A stretch of DNA of 64,000 nucleotides, taken from positions 1 to 64,000 of the forward strand of contig JAFLDV010000016.1 in NCBI GenBank assembly GCA_017302255.1. The letters are read 5' to 3'. Below the pieces are notes generated by a model. The model was not told the origin of the DNA. It made no database searches and saw nothing but the letters and a program-made list of their open reading frames with translations. Source of the stretch: Gammaproteobacteria bacterium. Its GTDB lineage: Bacteria > Pseudomonadota > Gammaproteobacteria > Enterobacterales > Alteromonadaceae. Shown here in pieces: positions 27,165-33,431 of this stretch. Numbering within the stretch: position 1 is the first letter of the stretch; each line of letters opens with the position of its first letter. A program made the translations under genes and the position numbers.

Positions 27165-28358
27165 TTAATTCTCCGGTTCAAAAGTACTACGACATAACGC
27201 GGCGCCACGTTGTACTAGCATCCGACCTTTGGCGATCACAGTGTCTAACTGCATGTCTTCACGACGGATCAATAAGACATCCGCATCAAGTCCAGCGCTA
27301 ATTTGCCCCTTTTGTTTCAAACCAAGAATTGCCGCTGGCGCGGCAGTGACGCTGGTCAGTGCATTTGCCAAAGGCACCTGATGCTGAACCACCGCCTCAC
27401 GGAAACTCTGATAGAGGCTTTGCACTTGGCCAACCTGCAGACCTTGCAGCTCGCCATCATCGTTATACAGCGGCAAACTCGCATTACCATCAGAACTCAG
27501 GGTAAGCTGCATCGCTGAGACGCCAAGATATAACGCTTCAGCCAAAGCAGCAGCCGCCGCGACTTCGCCGTGACGTAAATCGTAGGCTGTGGTGCTTGTG
27601 GTAAAGTCAATCACACCGCCTTTTTTAGTGAATTCGATACCCGCTTCAAACACTCGGCGATTTCGATTCATATGGGTCGGATAAAATTGTTTAACCCGAA
27701 GTTCAGTGCCACTTACCGCTTGGTAGAGTGGTTGCAAGATCCGCTCGCCTGCACCAACATGCACACTGACTACCCCGCCTTTGCCAGCTAACATGCCACC
27801 AACCCTTGCTGCTGCCGCAACTTTCCTCAGCTCATCGGTCGTAGGTTGTGATGAGCGGTGATCACTGATGGCAATTTCACCAACCCCAATAAACTTATCA
27901 ATTAAAATAAGATCATCGGTAATGCTGCCGGTTAAGGTTCGACAAGGAATTTCATAAGAGCCTGTGTGACAATAAGTACTGATCCCTTCGATTTCCAGCG
28001 CATGGGCTTTGGCCAACAGATTCGTTAAAGTTCGAGTAGTAGCATCAGTACCAAGCACACCTATTGCGGTGGTAACACCGGCTAGTGTCGCGTCGGTAAG
28101 CTGCATTTCTGGAGTTCTAGTGGCAAAACCGCCCTCACCACCACCACCGATAAAGTGCACCAGCGAATCGACAAATCCTGGAGTGAGGTAGTAGTCAGTA
28201 CAGTCCAGCACTGTCACCGGCAAATTGCTACTTGCGAGGTTAAAATCCTCACCAATAGCGGCGATGGTGCGACCAGCAATAACTAAATCCTGGCGCCCCA
28301 AACTTGTTGGAGCAAAAATTTCAGCATTTTTTAAAAGAATAATCGAATTCACAAGCAA
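27165..28358 (-). CDS. iadA: Isoaspartyl dipeptidase (beta-aspartyl peptidase), Glu-bridged type
   Basis: A 397-residue amidohydrolase (M38) that cleaves beta-aspartyl dipeptides. It aligns with E. coli IadA throughout: P-G-F-V-D (60-64), G-G-G-G-E-G-G, T-R-T-P-E, H-T-G-S-Y, S-D-H-R-S, P-T-H-M-N-R and L-S-S-D-G-N-A-S. Two differences at the zinc site are visible. The first histidine of the H-x-H motif is Leu66 (L-V-H). The bridging carbamylated lysine of E. coli (I-G-V-K) is replaced by G-V-G-E (Glu161), as in the Glu-type IadA described from Colwellia. The gene lies 6 bases downstream of the yfcC-like carrier and is surely cotranscribed with it. Confidence 0.92.
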   Translation of the reverse strand: MLVNSIILLKNAEIFAPTSLGRQDLVIAGRTIAAIGEDFNLASSNLPVTVLDCTDYYLTPGFVDSLVHFIGGGGEGGFATRTPEMQLTDATLAGVTTAIGVLGTDATTRTLTNLLAKAHALEIEGISTYCHTGSYEIPCRTLTGSITDDLILIDKFIGVGEIAISDHRSSQPTTDELRKVAAAARVGGMLAGKGGVVSVHVGAGERILQPLYQAVSGTELRVKQFYPTHMNRNRRVFEAGIEFTKKGGVIDFTTSTTAYDLRHGEVAAAAALAEALYLGVSAMQLTLSSDGNASLPLYNDDGELQGLQVGQVQSLYQSFREAVVQHQVPLANALTSVTAAPAAILGLKQKGQISAGLDADVLLIRREDMQLDTVIAKGRMLVQRGAALCRSTFEPEN

Positions 28359-28364
28359 CTCCTT

Positions 28365-29855
28365 TTACTGGTAATCGATTGCAACAGCAACCAACATAAA
28401 CATGCTGGCAAGCGCAAATAAATAGAGTTGCAAGCGCCACACAAATTTCAGCCAAATCGCCCAATCCAGACGGACGGCACCTAAGCAGCCAATTAGCGCA
28501 GCTGACGTTGGAATAATACAATTGGTTAAACCATCACCCAATTGGAAGGCTAGCACCGCGGTTTGTCGAGAAAGCCCAATCAAATCTGACAATGGTGCAA
28601 TCAATGGCATAGTCAATGCCGCTTGCCCCGACCCCGATGACACAAAGAAATTGATCACCGATTGCACAACTAGCATCAGCCAAGCAGAAAGGTAATTAGG
28701 TAAGTCTTGCAGAGACTGCGCCGAGTAAAACAATAGGGTATTGAGCACAGACGGATTTTCTGGATTGTCACCACCAAGCAGCAACACTATCCCTTTCGCC
28801 ATACCGACAATCAATGAGGCCGGCAGTAAGTCTGCTGCGCCTTGTTTAAAGCCGTCGGCGACGTCGTTAACCCGAAGCCGACCACCAATGACGGCGGCAA
28901 AACCAATAACTACACCAATGGTGAAAAATTGGCTGGCGATTTCAGGAATGAAATATTGGCGAGCAGTCACCCCCCAAATGATCCAAGCAAGACCTGCAAA
29001 GAACAACGCGAGAATCACCGAATCTAAAAAAGAGTAGCTGGAAGATACCTGACTATTTTGTACAGCACGCACTCGTTGATCTGATTGATAACTTACTGAT
29101 GATTCTGGGTTTTGTTTGACTCTTGCGGCATAACGCATGGTAAAAACCATACCGAAAATGGTGAACACTAACCACATAGCCATTCTGAGTTCTTGCCCTG
29201 AAAACAATGGAATTTCGGCGATCCCCTGCGCTATCGCTACATTAAACGGGTTCATCCATGAGGTGGCAAAACCGATTTGAGTGGCCACGTAAGTAACCAG
29301 AACTGTAGTAATGGCATCATAACCAAGCGCCAACATTAGCGGGAGTAGCACGATACAAAAGGCAATCGCTTCCTCACCCATACCGAAAACTGCACCGCCC
29401 AAAGAAAACAGCGCGAACAAAATCGGAATAAACAAAAATTGTAAGTTTCGGGTGCGATCAATTAACGCTAAAATGCCGTTATGAATAGCCCCAGTTTTCA
29501 TCAAGATCCCAAAGGCTCCGCCGGTGATGAGGATAAACATCACAACACCAACCGCAGATCCCCATTTGTTGCCTGAGACTAAGCCCTCAAAAGCGTAATT
29601 GAAAAAACCCACGGCACCGCCTTCAGCAAATAGCGGCACGCCTGGGTCTGCTTGCTCGGCAAAATGGAAACTATTCGGATCAAGTTTACCTTTTACTTTT
29701 GCGGCACCTTCTGCAACCGGTGCAGGTTCTAGTAGTTGAAATGAGCCCGCAGGCACCAGATGCGAAGCGATTGCCGCTAGCACCATGATAAAAAATAGTA
29801 TGACTAACGCATCCGGCATGCTCGCCGTATTTGTTTGTTTTTGTTCATGCGACAT
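28365..29855 (-). CDS. yfcC: YfcC-family (C4-dicarboxylate/basic amino-acid) membrane carrier
   Basis: An inner-membrane transporter of about 496 residues with roughly 12 hydrophobic segments. P-D-A-L-V-I-L-F opens the first helix. Family landmarks include G-G-A-F-G-I-L-M-K-T-G-A-I, G-M-G-E-E-A-I-A-F (about 160-168), A-T-S-W-M-N-P-F-N-V-A-I-A-Q (about 200-213), S-S-G-S-G-Q-A-A-L-T-M-P (about 411) and G-L-T-N-x-I-x-P-T-S near the end. I chose ATG 29855; 29867 is possible, and neither has a strong ribosome-binding site. Paired with iadA it most likely imports beta-aspartyl dipeptides or amino acids; the substrate is inferred only from the neighbour. Confidence 0.87.
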   Translation of the reverse strand: MSHEQKQTNTASMPDALVILFFIMVLAAIASHLVPAGSFQLLEPAPVAEGAAKVKGKLDPNSFHFAEQADPGVPLFAEGGAVGFFNYAFEGLVSGNKWGSAVGVVMFILITGGAFGILMKTGAIHNGILALIDRTRNLQFLFIPILFALFSLGGAVFGMGEEAIAFCIVLLPLMLALGYDAITTVLVTYVATQIGFATSWMNPFNVAIAQGIAEIPLFSGQELRMAMWLVFTIFGMVFTMRYAARVKQNPESSVSYQSDQRVRAVQNSQVSSSYSFLDSVILALFFAGLAWIIWGVTARQYFIPEIASQFFTIGVVIGFAAVIGGRLRVNDVADGFKQGAADLLPASLIVGMAKGIVLLLGGDNPENPSVLNTLLFYSAQSLQDLPNYLSAWLMLVVQSVINFFVSSGSGQAALTMPLIAPLSDLIGLSRQTAVLAFQLGDGLTNCIIPTSAALIGCLGAVRLDWAIWLKFVWRLQLYLFALASMFMLVAVAIDYQ

Positions 29856-30028
29856 GACAATAACCATCTGAATATACGCGTAAATCTTACAAATGCTCGC
29901 ACAAGCGCTTAGTTAGAATTTACGATTTTAACTGGAGTTTTCGTTGCTGCAGACAACAATAAATCAGCGCAAGAATGCGAGATAATTTTGAAGTAATTAG
30001 CAATGCAACGAAGATGGAGGTGGCAACA

Positions 30029-30064
30029 ATAGCGCCAACCAGACACTGGGTGTCTGGCGACTAT
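30029..30064 (-). promoter_or_regulatory. Hairpin directly after the minus-strand micropeptide stop codon
   Basis: A perfect 8-bp stem pairs 30039-30046 (CCAGACAC) with 30050-30057 around a 3-base loop. A competing longer form pairs 30029-30036 with 30056-30064 with one bulged base and keeps six of the inner pairs. The structure abuts the TAG stop at 30067-30065 and has no T-tract after it on the minus strand. A ribosome at the end of the peptide frame would cover part of it, so folding and translation are likely coupled. Confidence 0.65.
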
Positions 30065-30139
30065 CTACTCGTTAAACCACTCTGACAAGTAGTAAGACGA
30101 ATAGTGATATGTGCTTAAATAAATTGCATTTTTCAGCAT
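30065..30139 (-). CDS. 24-residue aromatic-rich micropeptide upstream of yfcC-iadA (copy 1)
   Basis: ATG at 30139-30137, TAG at 30067-30065. It shares 15 of 24 residues, without gaps, with a second frame on the opposite strand at 30489-30563. Common positions are M-x-K-x-A-x-x-L at 1-8 and Y-x-Y-S-x-Y-Y-L-S-E-W-F-N at 11-23. Of 13 identical codons other than Met/Trp, six are written differently in the two copies, so the peptide rather than the DNA is conserved. Ribosome-binding site is weak (TGGTAGCG). It has no signal peptide or membrane segment. Aromatic density suggests a leader peptide sensing translation; a secreted or signalling peptide is possible. It points toward yfcC-iadA. Confidence 0.72.
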   Translation of the reverse strand: MLKNAIYLSTYHYSSYYLSEWFNE

Positions 30140-30210
30140 ATCGCTACCATGAAGAAGACGGATTTTGCACAGAAAAGCTAAATTGCCGTGCTGAATTCTA
30201 TTTTAGAAAT

Positions 30211-30237
30211 ACTGATTTTAAGCAGTTAAGTCAAGCG
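30211..30237 (-). promoter_or_regulatory. Upstream box pair of micropeptide copy 1
   Basis: On the minus strand CGCTTGAC (30237-30230) is followed after 12 bases by AATCAGT (30217-30211). The same two boxes, 11 bases apart, lie before copy 2. TTGACT inside the first box resembles a -35 element; a TATTTC -10 would be 17 bases on. The distance to the peptide start is about 98 bases. The matched spacing in both copies argues for a promoter or operator shared by the two units. Confidence 0.5.
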
Positions 30238-30377
30238 AACTCAGCTAAAAATCTGAGATGCTATTTTGAGTCACCTATCAGCGCTGTTTTTCTTCCTGAT
30301 GGTTTTCGTTCTAATTTTTCCTCCCGCAAAATGCTTCACTTGGCAGATCAAGCTTTTAGCGATAGGTTAAAAAAAAA

Positions 30378-30403
30378 CGCTTGACAGAATTTTGCAAATC
30401 AGT
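30378..30403 (+). promoter_or_regulatory. Upstream box pair of micropeptide copy 2
   Basis: CGCTTGAC (30378-30385) is followed after 11 bases by AATCAGT (30397-30403), mirroring the boxes before copy 1. It contains a perfect -35 hexamer TTGACA (30381-30386). A convincing -10 at the usual distance is absent; TTTTAA lies 20 bases downstream. The peptide start is 103 bases past the -35. Confidence 0.5.
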
Positions 30404-30488
30404 GAGTTTTAAAGCTCAGCCGATTTTCCGGTTCAATCAAACGCCTTATCGTCATCACGATATCGCCAAATTTATAGGAGGGGGGGTC

Positions 30489-30563
30489 ATGCAAAAATGC
30501 GCAGTTAATCTTGGCAGTTATTACTACTCTCCCTACTACCTTTCCGAGTGGTTTAATAATTAG
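30489..30563 (+). CDS. 24-residue aromatic-rich micropeptide upstream of the TonB-dependent receptor (copy 2)
   Basis: ATG at 30489, TAG at 30561-30563. A very strong ribosome-binding site (TAGGAGGGGGGG) ends 2 bases before the ATG, which decides this start over a longer in-frame TTG start at 30381. The length is exactly that of copy 1, with the same end motif Y-Y-L-S-E-W-F-N. Seven of the 24 residues are aromatic (five Tyr, one Trp, one Phe), five of them within residues 11-17. It points toward the receptor gene, whose start lies 228 bases downstream. It could be a leader peptide controlling that gene, or a functional micropeptide. Confidence 0.8.
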   Translation: MQKCAVNLGSYYYSPYYLSEWFNN

Positions 30564-30567
30564 ATCA

Positions 30568-30588
30568 CCCTCTGCTTTACGCAGAGGG
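30568..30588 (+). promoter_or_regulatory. Hairpin just after the plus-strand micropeptide stop codon
   Basis: A perfect 8-bp stem CCCTCTGC/GCAGAGGG (30568-30575 with 30581-30588) has the loop TTTAC. It begins 4 bases past the TAG stop. No T-tract follows. The right arm could alternatively pair with CCCTCTCTGC at 30702-30711 close to the receptor gene, so two exclusive folds are possible. Confidence 0.6.
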
Positions 30589-30619
30589 GCGCTTCAAAAT
30601 CCCGTTGCTTTGGCATAGA

Positions 30620-30658
30620 TATGTCAACATCCGCGCACTCCCCGCTCGATGTTGATAT
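30620..30658 (+). promoter_or_regulatory. Second stem-loop in the receptor leader
   Basis: TCAACATC (30624-30631) pairs with GATGTTGA (30648-30655). The stem can be extended by flanking ATAT/TAT around one bulged G. A moderately T-rich stretch follows. It could act as a weak terminator in an attenuation scheme, but this rests on inspection only. Confidence 0.4.
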
Positions 30659-30791
30659 TTGCCTAGCTATTTGAGCGTGTCACTCCGGTTCTGCTTTGCA
30701 GCCCTCTCTGCATCCCTTTACTCGTTGATTTAACAAACCAGATTGCCTGAAGGCAACAAAATCTAGCGCGATTTTATCCTGAGGAATGCAC

Positions 30792-33431
30792 ATGAACACA
30801 ACACAATCACCAGCAACCTTGTTGCAAAAAAATCTAAAGAAAACAGCTATCTGCAGTGCAATTTTATTCGCATTTTCTGCTTCAGCACAACAAACTGCCG
30901 CCCCTGAAGAACCGGCAGCAGATAAGAAAATTGAAAAGATTGAAGTGACAGGGTCTCGCTTGAAGGGCGTAGACATGGAAGGTGCCAATCCGCTAGAGAT
31001 TTTTACCGCCGAAGACTTAATGGACAAAGGCTATGACAGCGTTGCAAGTTTCCTGCGAGATTTGCCGCAAGCCGCAAGCGCTGGAACTTTCACAGAAAAC
31101 GGCAACGTTGCAGGCTCTGATGGCACGCCACCAGGAGCTGCAGGTGTTAGTTTACGTGGCTTGGGCTCAAGCTCAACACTGGTTTTAGTAAACGGCCGTC
31201 GGGTTGCTGTCGACTCGTTCTCGAATGGTTTTGACTCATTCGTCAACGTCAACGCCATCCCAATGACTGCGATTGAACGCATTGAAGTGCTGACCGACGG
31301 TGCAGCTTCGGTGTATGGCTCTGACGCTATTGCCGGTGTTATCAACTTCATCATGAAGAAAAATTATGAAGGCCATGAAGTTAGTGCCATGACTGGCGAC
31401 GACTCAGCGAAAGGTGATTTCGGTCGTTATAACTTTACCTACACCGGCGGTTTTGCGACTGACAACTCAAATACCACTGTGGTATTAGATTATTTCAAAC
31501 GCGATGAATTGATGAATGAAGACCGTCCTATTGACGTGACCTTCTTATCGTCTACTCGCGTCACTATCGACGGTCGTGACTACGCAGAACCTTGGTGTGG
31601 CACTAAGACCAGCAACGGCGGTACTCGTTGTCAGTATGATTATGTCAATGAACGCGCTATCCAACCAGATACGAAAAACCTTGGTGCAACCCTCAACCAT
31701 ATTTACCGTTTAGGTGATGAAAAAGAGTTGTTTGTTGAAGCAATGTATCAAAAAAATACCGGTCACTCTTACGACTCTGCTGGTTCTTTTGACCTGCGCT
31801 TACCAGGCAATGCAGCCGCAGTTCCGCAATGGGTTCGCACTATTGACGCACAAAATGGTTCGGTCGGCACTATCCGCGTGCGTTCGCGCTTCCCAGAGCG
31901 CCGGATGCAAGAATATGACAGCAATAGCTATCGTTTACTCGCTGGTATTCGCGGGGAAACTAATATTTTTGGTTCAAGTGAAACTTGGCGCTACGAAACT
32001 GCTGCCACTTTAGGTAAATCCGACAACGAAGTACTGCATGTCAGCGGATACTACAATTTAGACCGTCTCTCTGCAGCGATCGGCAACGGCCAATTTAATC
32101 CTTTCAATTTAGGCCGTGATACGCCTGCGGACGTTATTGCCGGTCTTCGTGAATTAGCCCCACGTGTCGGTGAGTCTGATGTGAAGTCATGGGATTTCAA
32201 CATCAGCGGGAATATCGCTGAATTACCAGCAGGCCCTGTCAGCGCGGTATTTGGCGGTGAATGGCGCAGTGAAGATATTTTCGATACTCCAGCGTTAGTT
32301 GCACAACAAGGACTCGTCAGCACATTAGGCGCAAGTGATGCGGCTGCAGATCGCACCCAGTATGCCGGTTACGCTGAGTTTAACTTGCCTATCACTGAAA
32401 AATTCGATGTCATCTCTGCACTTCGTTACGACCATTACAGTGATTTTGGTGGCGATGCCAACCCGAAAGTGTCATTACGTTACCGTGCAACCGACGACTT
32501 AATCCTGCGCGCCAGCTGGAGCACAGGTTTCCGTGCACCTTCATTGTCTGAACTAGGTGCGGGCACTTCTTTGGGTTCTAACTACATCGACTGTGGTACT
32601 GGTAAACCATACAACGCATTGTGCGGTAGTTTTGGTGCCCAAGCCGGCGAACTCGAATATGATCAAGAAACATTAGGTAACCGTGATTTAGATGCAGAAA
32701 GTTCTGAAGCCTTTAATACCGGTATTTCTTGGAACTTAACCGATGATCTGAATATGACCATCGACTACTGGCGCTATGAGCATACCGATATCGTTGATGT
32801 TGATGCCAACACCACGTTAAAAGCTTGTATCGCAGGCACTGCACCAACGGTTGCCGATGCTGCAGCACTGAATGGCGCCTTCGGTTGTGTGAAAGACAGC
32901 GGCGGTGACTTAACGTTCTTACGTACTGGCTTCTTTAACGTTGGTGCGCAAGAGACTGACGGTATCGATGCCAAAATCAAATATGGCTTTGATACCAGTG
33001 TTGGCCGCTTTAAAGCAACCTTAGCTGGCACCCGGACCTTGAGTTATGAGCGTCAGTTGACTGCAGATGATCCAGCAGAAGATTTGCTTGGCAAGTTAAG
33101 CGGCGCTAGCGAAATCGCCCGCCCAGAATTTGTTGGCGACGCCAGTATCGATTGGAAACTACAAGATTGGAACGCTAGCCTCAGTGCGCATTATGTAAGC
33201 TCACTTGGTGACGGCGACTTCAAATTTGATAATGAAACAGTGAAATCGTGGCTGACCATGAACGCGAGTGTTGGTTATAACATCACTAACGATCAAGATG
33301 TGCAGTTCGCGGTACGTAACTTAACCGACAAAGAGCCACCATACGCGTCATCACCAACTAATGGTTATGCGAGCTCGGTGCACGACTGGTTAGGTCGAGT
33401 ATGGACAGTACGTTACACTGTAAAATTCTAA
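30792..33431 (+). CDS. TonB-dependent receptor
   Basis: An 879-residue outer-membrane receptor. A signal peptide ends near A-S-A-Q-Q (about 33), the TonB box is in I-E-K-I-E-V-T-G-S-R, and the plug domain carries V-L-V-N-G-R-R-V-A-V, I-E-R-I-E-V-L-T-D-G-A-A-S-V-Y-G-S-D-A-I-A-G-V-I-N. The barrel ends in W-T-V-R-Y-T-V-K-F with terminal Phe. The start at 30792 lies 6 bases after GAGGA; the ATG at 30786 is too close. Receptors of this proteobacterial class import peptides or oligosaccharides rather than siderophores. Being divergent from yfcC-iadA, it may import beta-aspartyl dipeptides or a polymer containing them (inference). Confidence 0.92.
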   Translation: MNTTQSPATLLQKNLKKTAICSAILFAFSASAQQTAAPEEPAADKKIEKIEVTGSRLKGVDMEGANPLEIFTAEDLMDKGYDSVASFLRDLPQAASAGTFTENGNVAGSDGTPPGAAGVSLRGLGSSSTLVLVNGRRVAVDSFSNGFDSFVNVNAIPMTAIERIEVLTDGAASVYGSDAIAGVINFIMKKNYEGHEVSAMTGDDSAKGDFGRYNFTYTGGFATDNSNTTVVLDYFKRDELMNEDRPIDVTFLSSTRVTIDGRDYAEPWCGTKTSNGGTRCQYDYVNERAIQPDTKNLGATLNHIYRLGDEKELFVEAMYQKNTGHSYDSAGSFDLRLPGNAAAVPQWVRTIDAQNGSVGTIRVRSRFPERRMQEYDSNSYRLLAGIRGETNIFGSSETWRYETAATLGKSDNEVLHVSGYYNLDRLSAAIGNGQFNPFNLGRDTPADVIAGLRELAPRVGESDVKSWDFNISGNIAELPAGPVSAVFGGEWRSEDIFDTPALVAQQGLVSTLGASDAAADRTQYAGYAEFNLPITEKFDVISALRYDHYSDFGGDANPKVSLRYRATDDLILRASWSTGFRAPSLSELGAGTSLGSNYIDCGTGKPYNALCGSFGAQAGELEYDQETLGNRDLDAESSEAFNTGISWNLTDDLNMTIDYWRYEHTDIVDVDANTTLKACIAGTAPTVADAAALNGAFGCVKDSGGDLTFLRTGFFNVGAQETDGIDAKIKYGFDTSVGRFKATLAGTRTLSYERQLTADDPAEDLLGKLSGASEIARPEFVGDASIDWKLQDWNASLSAHYVSSLGDGDFKFDNETVKSWLTMNASVGYNITNDQDVQFAVRNLTDKEPPYASSPTNGYASSVHDWLGRVWTVRYTVKF

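Follow-up and report, generated by a model that had tools for sequence, protein, structure and literature searches.

Two open reading frames of exactly 24 codons, here called leaders A and B, lie on opposite strands in the gap between a gene for a DcuC/YfcC-type transporter and a gene for a TonB-dependent receptor (Table 1). They belong to a 64,000-nt stretch of DNA that was analysed as a whole and is referred to below as the window. Positions, strands and TAG stops of both frames agree with a preliminary description of this DNA, and matches of the neighbouring proteins to family models bear out its placing of leader A before yfcC-iadA and of leader B before the TonB receptor. The first start codon of the yfcC frame is found ~198 nt past the stop of leader A, and the receptor gene starts 222 nt past that of leader B. 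The two peptides have 15 of 24 residues in common without gaps. Leaving Met and Trp aside, 13 residues are identical, and the codon is the same in seven of these and different in six, again as described before. Synonymous differences between the two frames amount to 9.5 per 12.7 sites and non-synonymous ones to 13.5 per 59.3. The two stretches also form a 77-nt inverted repeat with 70% complementarity. An E-ending and an N-ending form of the leader are found side by side in the window, each before different genes. The same genome has two cyanophycinase-like genes, both on contigs other than that of the leaders.

Neither window peptide matches a family in Pfam or NCBIfam at E up to 1, and a search of window positions 29800-30900 against Rfam gave no match at the gathering score, the best being RF01697 with 23.7 bits against the 45 required. 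The string YLSEW, shared by both peptides, occurs in no paper among the open-licence PubMed Central papers, an absence that counts as weak evidence.

Table 1. Leaders A and B and neighbouring features in the window
Feature	Position	Strand	Remarks
Leader A, MLKNAIYLSTYHYSSYYLSEWFNE, 24 codons, stop TAG	30065..30139	minus	before yfcC-iadA
Post-stop hairpin of leader A	30034..30058	minus	begins 6 nt past stop
yfcC, DcuC/YfcC-type transporter	28365..29867	minus	NF008611, 702 bits vs cut-off 500
iadA, beta-aspartyl (isoaspartyl) dipeptidase	27165..28358	minus	TIGR01975, 487 bits vs cut-off 331
Ribosome-binding site of leader B, AGGAGG-type	30476..30486	plus	read from sequence
Leader B, MQKCAVNLGSYYYSPYYLSEWFNN, 24 codons, stop TAG (FNN form)	30489..30563	plus	before TonB-dependent receptor
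Post-stop hairpin of leader B, CCCTCTGC-TTTAC-GCAGAGGG	30568..30588	plus	begins 4 nt past stop
TonB-dependent receptor, 881 aa	30786..33431	plus	PF00593, PF07715

Distribution and sequence of the leader peptides

A profile of the two window peptides was searched against 60 genomes. Of 22 genomes of the genus, among them that of the window, 21 gave full-length 24-aa matches and 19 have two leader matches; the single miss (G018) is a draft of ~620 contigs. Another genome of this genus, G003, contains 4 kb that are identical to DNA of Rheinheimera texasensis DSM 17496, which places the window in Rheinheimera or in a member of its genus. Outside the genus, full-length matches are present in six of 14 other genomes of the taxonomic family and in two of 24 from the order's other families, with best E-values across these eight genomes ranging from 7.6e-7 to 6.8e-13. 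The likeness between leaders A and B is more than chance. The homologous short frames that the preliminary description had proposed to look for in relatives are found in many genera, where they lie on the coding strand and closely precede one limited group of genes.

A second profile, made from 16 peptides, matched 41 of 394 genomes of the order. Forty of these matches were taken as true, and the one in G342 was considered spurious, having an in-frame TAA. One genome (G395) carries three leaders. A pattern scan of named genomes, in which TAA or TAG was demanded, returned at least 120 stretches, and the 80 titled matches listed are all from Gammaproteobacteria by name. Among the matches listed are the genera Rheinheimera, Arsukibacterium, Alkalimonas, Alteromonas, Thalassotalea, Colwellia, Idiomarina, Shewanella, Aeromonas, Halomonas, Billgrantia, Vreelandella, Microbulbifer, Saccharospirillum, Aliikangiella, Wenzhouxiangella, Lysobacter, Silanimonas and Arenimonas. 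The distribution is patchy, with the leader present in 20 of 151 genomes of a Halomonadaceae sample and in 11 of 149 of a Lysobacteraceae sample. When the pattern was run without a stop on 369 genomes across the class, nine matched, and members of the leader family were recognized only in the window's genome and in G065. In total, we collected 161 non-redundant copies, which comprise 122 distinct peptides.

The peptides are 19-37 aa long (24 aa in 120 of the 161 copies), and their C-terminus, [YFWH]-YLSEW-[FW]-[DN]-[EN], abuts the stop codon directly. The constancy of this end is partly a matter of selection, since the 161 copies were chosen for YLSEW, any residue, N or D, any residue and a stop. 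Profile searches made no demand for YLSEW, yet the profiles had been trained on YLSEW-bearing peptides; all 52 loci brought in by profile search have it. Three positions were free to vary: the residue before YLSEW is Y in 78 copies, F in 70, W in 10 and H in three, the residue after it is F in 136 and W in 25, and the last residue is E in 139 and N in 22. As for codons, this final N is AAT in 22 of 22 cases, and Asp at position -2 is GAC in 95 of 98. The N-terminus varies in both sequence and length, being Tyr-rich in Alteromonadales and quite different in Lysobacteraceae (MPKPRNHIRHIARTFYLSEWWDE) and Halomonadaceae (MINNGGFVESFYLSEWFDE).

Six codons are in use for Ser at -6 and six for Leu at -7. 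Across 108 distinct 24-codon ORFs, pN/pS is 0.35 in frame versus 1.26 and 1.22 in the shifted frames; it is 0.53 for codons 2-16, on which copies were not selected, and 0.12 for codons 17-24, the latter value being partly due to that choice. Since pN/pS is low in the annotated frame only, selection acts on the peptide, as had been suggested from the window pair.

Initiation is a weak point of the mechanism favoured below. A Shine-Dalgarno-like word precedes 35% of 121 leaders compared with 17% in a control stretch, and by group it is found in 92% of FNN leaders and in few of the FNE (the group of leader A; 8%) and WDE (5%) leaders.

Stop codons and RNA behind the stop

The first scan had demanded TAA or TAG, and the stops were therefore counted again without a stop in the search pattern. 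In the 102 loci found in this way, TAG ends 71 leaders, TAA 31 and TGA none. TAG and TAA account for 53 and 18 leaders, respectively, in the order and genus sets, for 10 each in Halomonadaceae and for eight and three in Lysobacteraceae. Two pattern matches (L219 and L220), which run into sense codons and lie in unrelated contexts, were left out of the count. For the background, the collected loci were scanned for mechanical ORFs of 200 aa or more, some of which are spurious in G+C-rich DNA; their stops are TAA in 379, TGA in 223 and TAG in 121 cases, and in loci with a G+C content of at least 0.58 TGA ends 126 of 219. The naive P value for the absence of TGA is 8e-17 for all 102 loci and 3e-12 for the 31 loci of the two G+C-rich families, shared ancestry being ignored in both values. 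UAG and UAA are the codons read by RF1. A constant end that abuts a restricted stop points to termination arrest by the finished chain.

Compared with dinucleotide shuffles, the 45 nt past the stop are more strongly folded (mean z -2.03, n = 121); the corresponding values are -0.57 for a control stretch 60-105 nt further downstream and -0.20 for one ahead of the start. Within the frame, the final 45 nt have a mean z of -1.53, so that structure is not confined to the post-stop stretch. The first ten positions after the stop are C-rich and mostly G-poor. CCAC, which could pair with GUGG in the frame, follows the stop in 20 of 121 leaders, compared with a mean of 6.3 and a maximum of 13 in shuffles. 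In the window, the stretch of leader A (30010-30160, minus strand) folds far better than its shuffles (z -5.12), and the fold of the whole leader B stretch is not unusual (z -0.95). In the leader A transcript, the start region pairs with the stretch behind the post-stop hairpin.

Seven groups of leaders were examined for a consensus fold. The 20 FNN sequences have a 7-pair hairpin with 132 of 140 cells paired and four compensated pairs, for which the column-shuffle control was degenerate, all shuffles being at zero energy. In Shewanella (five sequences) there is an 11-pair hairpin with 53 of 55 cells paired and two compensated pairs. No consensus fold was found in FNE (37 sequences), FDE of Alteromonadaceae (30), FDE of Halomonas and others (34), Lysobacteraceae WWDE (14) or the rest (13). 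An intrinsic terminator is not supported as a general feature, because at least five T within the 8 nt after the hairpin are seen in only 21 of 121 leaders; the underlying hairpin search always returns some hairpin and has no control, and the controlled test is that of the shuffle z scores.

Genes next to the leaders

A gene for a TonB receptor, YfcC, an arginine-type binding protein or a cyanophycinase-like protein lies downstream on the same strand in 155 of the 156 loci with at least 600 nt of downstream sequence, the remaining five of the 161 being shorter. By tblastn over the 161 loci, the first downstream pathway gene is the TonB receptor in 113, the arginine-type binding protein in 24, YfcC in 11 and the cyanophycinase-like gene in seven; its match starts within 400 nt of the leader in 152 of 155, and no locus has an antisense pathway gene first. 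The references for tblastn came from the loci themselves, and those for the TonB receptor match TonB receptors in general. In Billgrantia saliphila (L117), a leader is followed by 1527 nt without a pathway gene, and ORFs for an ABC permease and a binding protein lie upstream on the same strand; this leader is perhaps a remnant.

In relatives, the genes are usually arranged as TonB receptor, YfcC, IadA, and a cyanophycinase-like gene is divergent upstream in 80 of 161 loci. Both YfcC (NF008611) and IadA (TIGR01975) score above their cut-offs. The binding protein of Aeromonas (L079) passes the cut-off of the Lys/Arg/Orn binding protein model TIGR01096, which that of Vreelandella (L096) does not reach. 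For the cyanophycinase-like proteins, cyanophycinase TIGR02069 is the best family at E ~1e-27 with a score below the curated cut-off; hence we call them '-like', and cyanophycin is their probable substrate. One member (L094) of a second cyanophycinase-like set has no family match. According to PMC10206079, where the term 'cyanophycin utilization locus' is also used, beta-Asp-Arg is the product of cyanophycinase and is cleaved by isoaspartyl dipeptidases such as IadA. The genes behind or beside the leaders are of the same kind: cyanophycinase-like, isoaspartyl dipeptidase and transporter genes are found together in relatives, and the window leaders adjoin those for IadA, YfcC and the TonB receptor. 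PMC3400609 reports a cyanophycinase gene that has a TonB receptor as its neighbour. The 'neighbouring transport genes' of the preliminary description are not generic ones: together with IadA and, in relatives, the divergent cyanophycinase-like gene, YfcC and the TonB receptor make up a cyanophycin/beta-aspartyl-dipeptide scavenging locus. The word 'leader' is absent from the main text of PMC10206079, and no description of a leader peptide for cyanophycin loci was found in open-licence PubMed Central papers, which is weak evidence.

The gene content differs between leader groups. A cyanophycin-type gene is present in 43 of 44 non-FNN loci with full flanks and in four of 11 FNN loci, one of which, in Rheinheimera texasensis (L033), has the FNN receptor adjoining the cyanophycinase-like gene. 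The other seven of the 11 have only a TonB receptor of ~860-910 aa, with a psrA-type regulator divergent. The single non-FNN exception is an FDE copy in G395 (L085), which precedes a 1130-aa TonB receptor without cyanophycin-type genes. Of the other leaders in that genome (L084 and L086), one stands before TonB receptor-YfcC-IadA and one before a second cyanophycinase-like gene.

Among the 394 genomes of the order, 32 have both the leader and a cyanophycinase-like gene, eight the leader only, nine the gene only and 345 neither (odds ratio 153, P 2e-31, ancestry ignored). All eight leader-only genomes belong to genus g59, and their leader is identical to that of named Aeromonas; in the g59 loci read with flanks (L079 and L080), it precedes the binding protein, and IadA was called next in one. 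The leader motif is missing from ten regions in which a cyanophycinase-like gene has no known leader beside it; five of them are from five of the nine gene-only genomes and five from genomes with a leader elsewhere. The window genome's two cyanophycinase-like genes are among these ten. Seven regions have no other pathway gene near, and three have YfcC and IadA near without a TonB receptor. Thus, the leader marks one type of locus only. In L289 (contig C39 of the window genome), L291 and L292, genes for the cyanophycinase-like protein, YfcC and IadA are co-directional, and neither a TonB receptor nor a leader of this family is present.

Proposed arrest at termination and competing explanations

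That both frames are leaders is strongly supported. As in leaders of the termination-arrest kind, their position is upstream and co-directional (155 of 156 loci), their sequence bears a coding signature and their conserved C-terminus abuts a restricted stop. The earlier proposal of leader or arrest peptides holds for its first part, given the upstream, co-directional homologues and the coding signature; arrest by the leader chain is plausible. On balance, we favour the explanation that both frames are probably cis-acting leaders of operons for scavenging cyanophycin or beta-Asp-Arg and would act by ligand-responsive ribosome arrest at UAG or UAA. From the sequences we infer translation in the cell, the arrest, its RF1 specificity, the ligand and a readout through Rho or a hairpin.

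In such a mechanism, mRNAs of genes that scavenge cyanophycin, or the beta-Asp-Arg produced from it, would carry the leaders as translated frames at their 5' end, and the presence of a pathway product, with arginine and the dipeptide beta-Asp-Arg as the likeliest candidates, would be the signal. Once complete, the chain would have YLSEW[FW][DN][EN] in the upper part of the exit tunnel and block release by RF1 at UAG or UAA. The ribosome would then park at the stop, where, to judge from the usual ribosome footprint, it would cover the C-rich stretch together with the hairpin base. The parked ribosome may prevent Rho loading or the formation of an inhibitory structure, and transcription would continue into the gene for the TonB receptor, YfcC-IadA, the arginine-type binding protein or the cyanophycinase-like protein. 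Without the product, the ribosome would leave and the operon would be attenuated.

The closest model is termination arrest as in TnaC and SpeFL. PMC8429421 describes TnaC as 24 aa long with a UGA stop, RF2 and a rut site right behind the stop, and SpeFL as blocking RF1 with ornithine as ligand and an N-terminal sensor part. In the E. coli sequence, tnaC ends in TGA 220 nt before tnaA, and speFL in TAG 257 nt before speF. The leaders resemble TnaC in having 24 codons, in a chain end at the stop that would be decisive, in a catabolic operon with a transporter behind, in a C-rich stretch after the stop (the Rho site in TnaC) and in similar spacing (220 nt in TnaC). Unlike TnaC, which uses UGA and RF2 and senses Trp, they have only UAG or UAA (TGA in 0 of 102), and their candidate ligand is arginine or beta-Asp-Arg. 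With SpeFL they share the TAG stop, a putative block of RF1, a probable ligand of the arginine/ornithine family and, in SpeFL at 257 nt, the spacing; SpeFL differs in its 34 codons and N-terminal sensor, whereas in the present leaders constancy is limited to the last eight or nine residues and the N-terminus varies. Leader A gave no local alignment with E. coli TnaC or with E. coli SpeFL at E up to 100. The word WFN, common to TnaC and the leaders, is in another place and was taken as chance. HIRH is found about ten residues before the end in Lysobacteraceae leaders (L098, L120, L125, L297, L317-L319 and others), and E. coli SpeFL has HIRRTTH, a likeness that is possibly chance; HIRRTTH is presumably part of the ornithine sensor of SpeFL. 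We file the leaders as a new family inside the known kind of arrest leaders, separate from both TnaC and SpeFL.

An arrest peptide with another input, one that stalls without a ligand or senses something else than a cyanophycin product, e.g. release-factor capacity or translation rate, is unlikely but deserves the most attention among the alternatives. The ligand of the arrest is one that we infer, the short constant part at the stop and the avoidance of TGA would equally suit a ligand-free block of RF1, and seven of the 11 full-flank FNN loci offer a TonB receptor only. The gene set of a single pathway in nearly all non-FNN full-flank loci (43 of 44) suits a pathway-specific signal better, as does the way the leader tracks the cyanophycinase-like gene over the 394 genomes.

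We regard as improbable a small peptide acting in trans, be it a signal, a receptor ligand or the precursor of a modified peptide. The sequence is under strong selection and many copies lie beside a TonB receptor (113 of 161), which would agree with it, but the position just upstream on the same strand is fixed, which also disfavours the free signal or receptor ligand considered in the preliminary description. Moreover, a released peptide would not need a constant part that ends at a constrained stop codon, no export signal was noticed by eye, and no peptide-modifying enzyme was found among the representative neighbour proteins run against family libraries.

Still less probable is classical attenuation, in which scarce charged Tyr, Trp or Phe tRNA would be sensed at clustered codons, as had also been proposed. 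Both window peptides and most of those from Alteromonadales are indeed Tyr-rich, and Trp is always present, though YLSEW was required in selection. Among the 121 distinct peptides, however, a single Tyr occurs in 11 and two in 23; leaders of Lysobacteraceae and Halomonadaceae contain one or two and lack the Tyr-rich half altogether, so that a readout of Tyr, Trp or Phe codons does not fit and was rejected. What is kept is the end at the stop: the constant aromatic codons are within the last nine, the stop is constrained, and the genes concern Asp and Arg compounds. Finally, an RNA element in which the open frame is incidental has next to nothing to recommend it and was rejected, for despite a conserved hairpin behind the frame in two groups and the inverted repeat of the window pair, pN/pS is below 1 in the annotated frame only, Ser and Leu codons are freely exchanged and no Rfam family reaches its threshold.

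Returning to ligand-responsive arrest, we tentatively propose, as a possibility somewhat short of even, a new class of arrest peptide in which arginine or beta-Asp-Arg is captured in the exit tunnel by the last eight or nine residues, with RF1 blocked at UAG or UAA and with E and N forms in one genome. To our knowledge, few metabolite-sensing arrest leader peptides have been characterized, TnaC and SpeFL among them. The 122 distinct natural variants, with their short constant end and strict choice of stop, are data on how a nascent chain may block RF1, and loci of this type can be recognized in unannotated genomes by YLSEW[FW][DN][EN]-stop. The leaders also provide a proposal, with candidate ligands, for how many aquatic Gammaproteobacteria may switch on the scavenging of cyanophycin. 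If the proposal is true, there would be a ribosomal sensor for a cyanobacterial storage polymer that is widespread in Gammaproteobacteria, and the E and N forms may set different thresholds for uptake through the TonB receptor and for YfcC-IadA.
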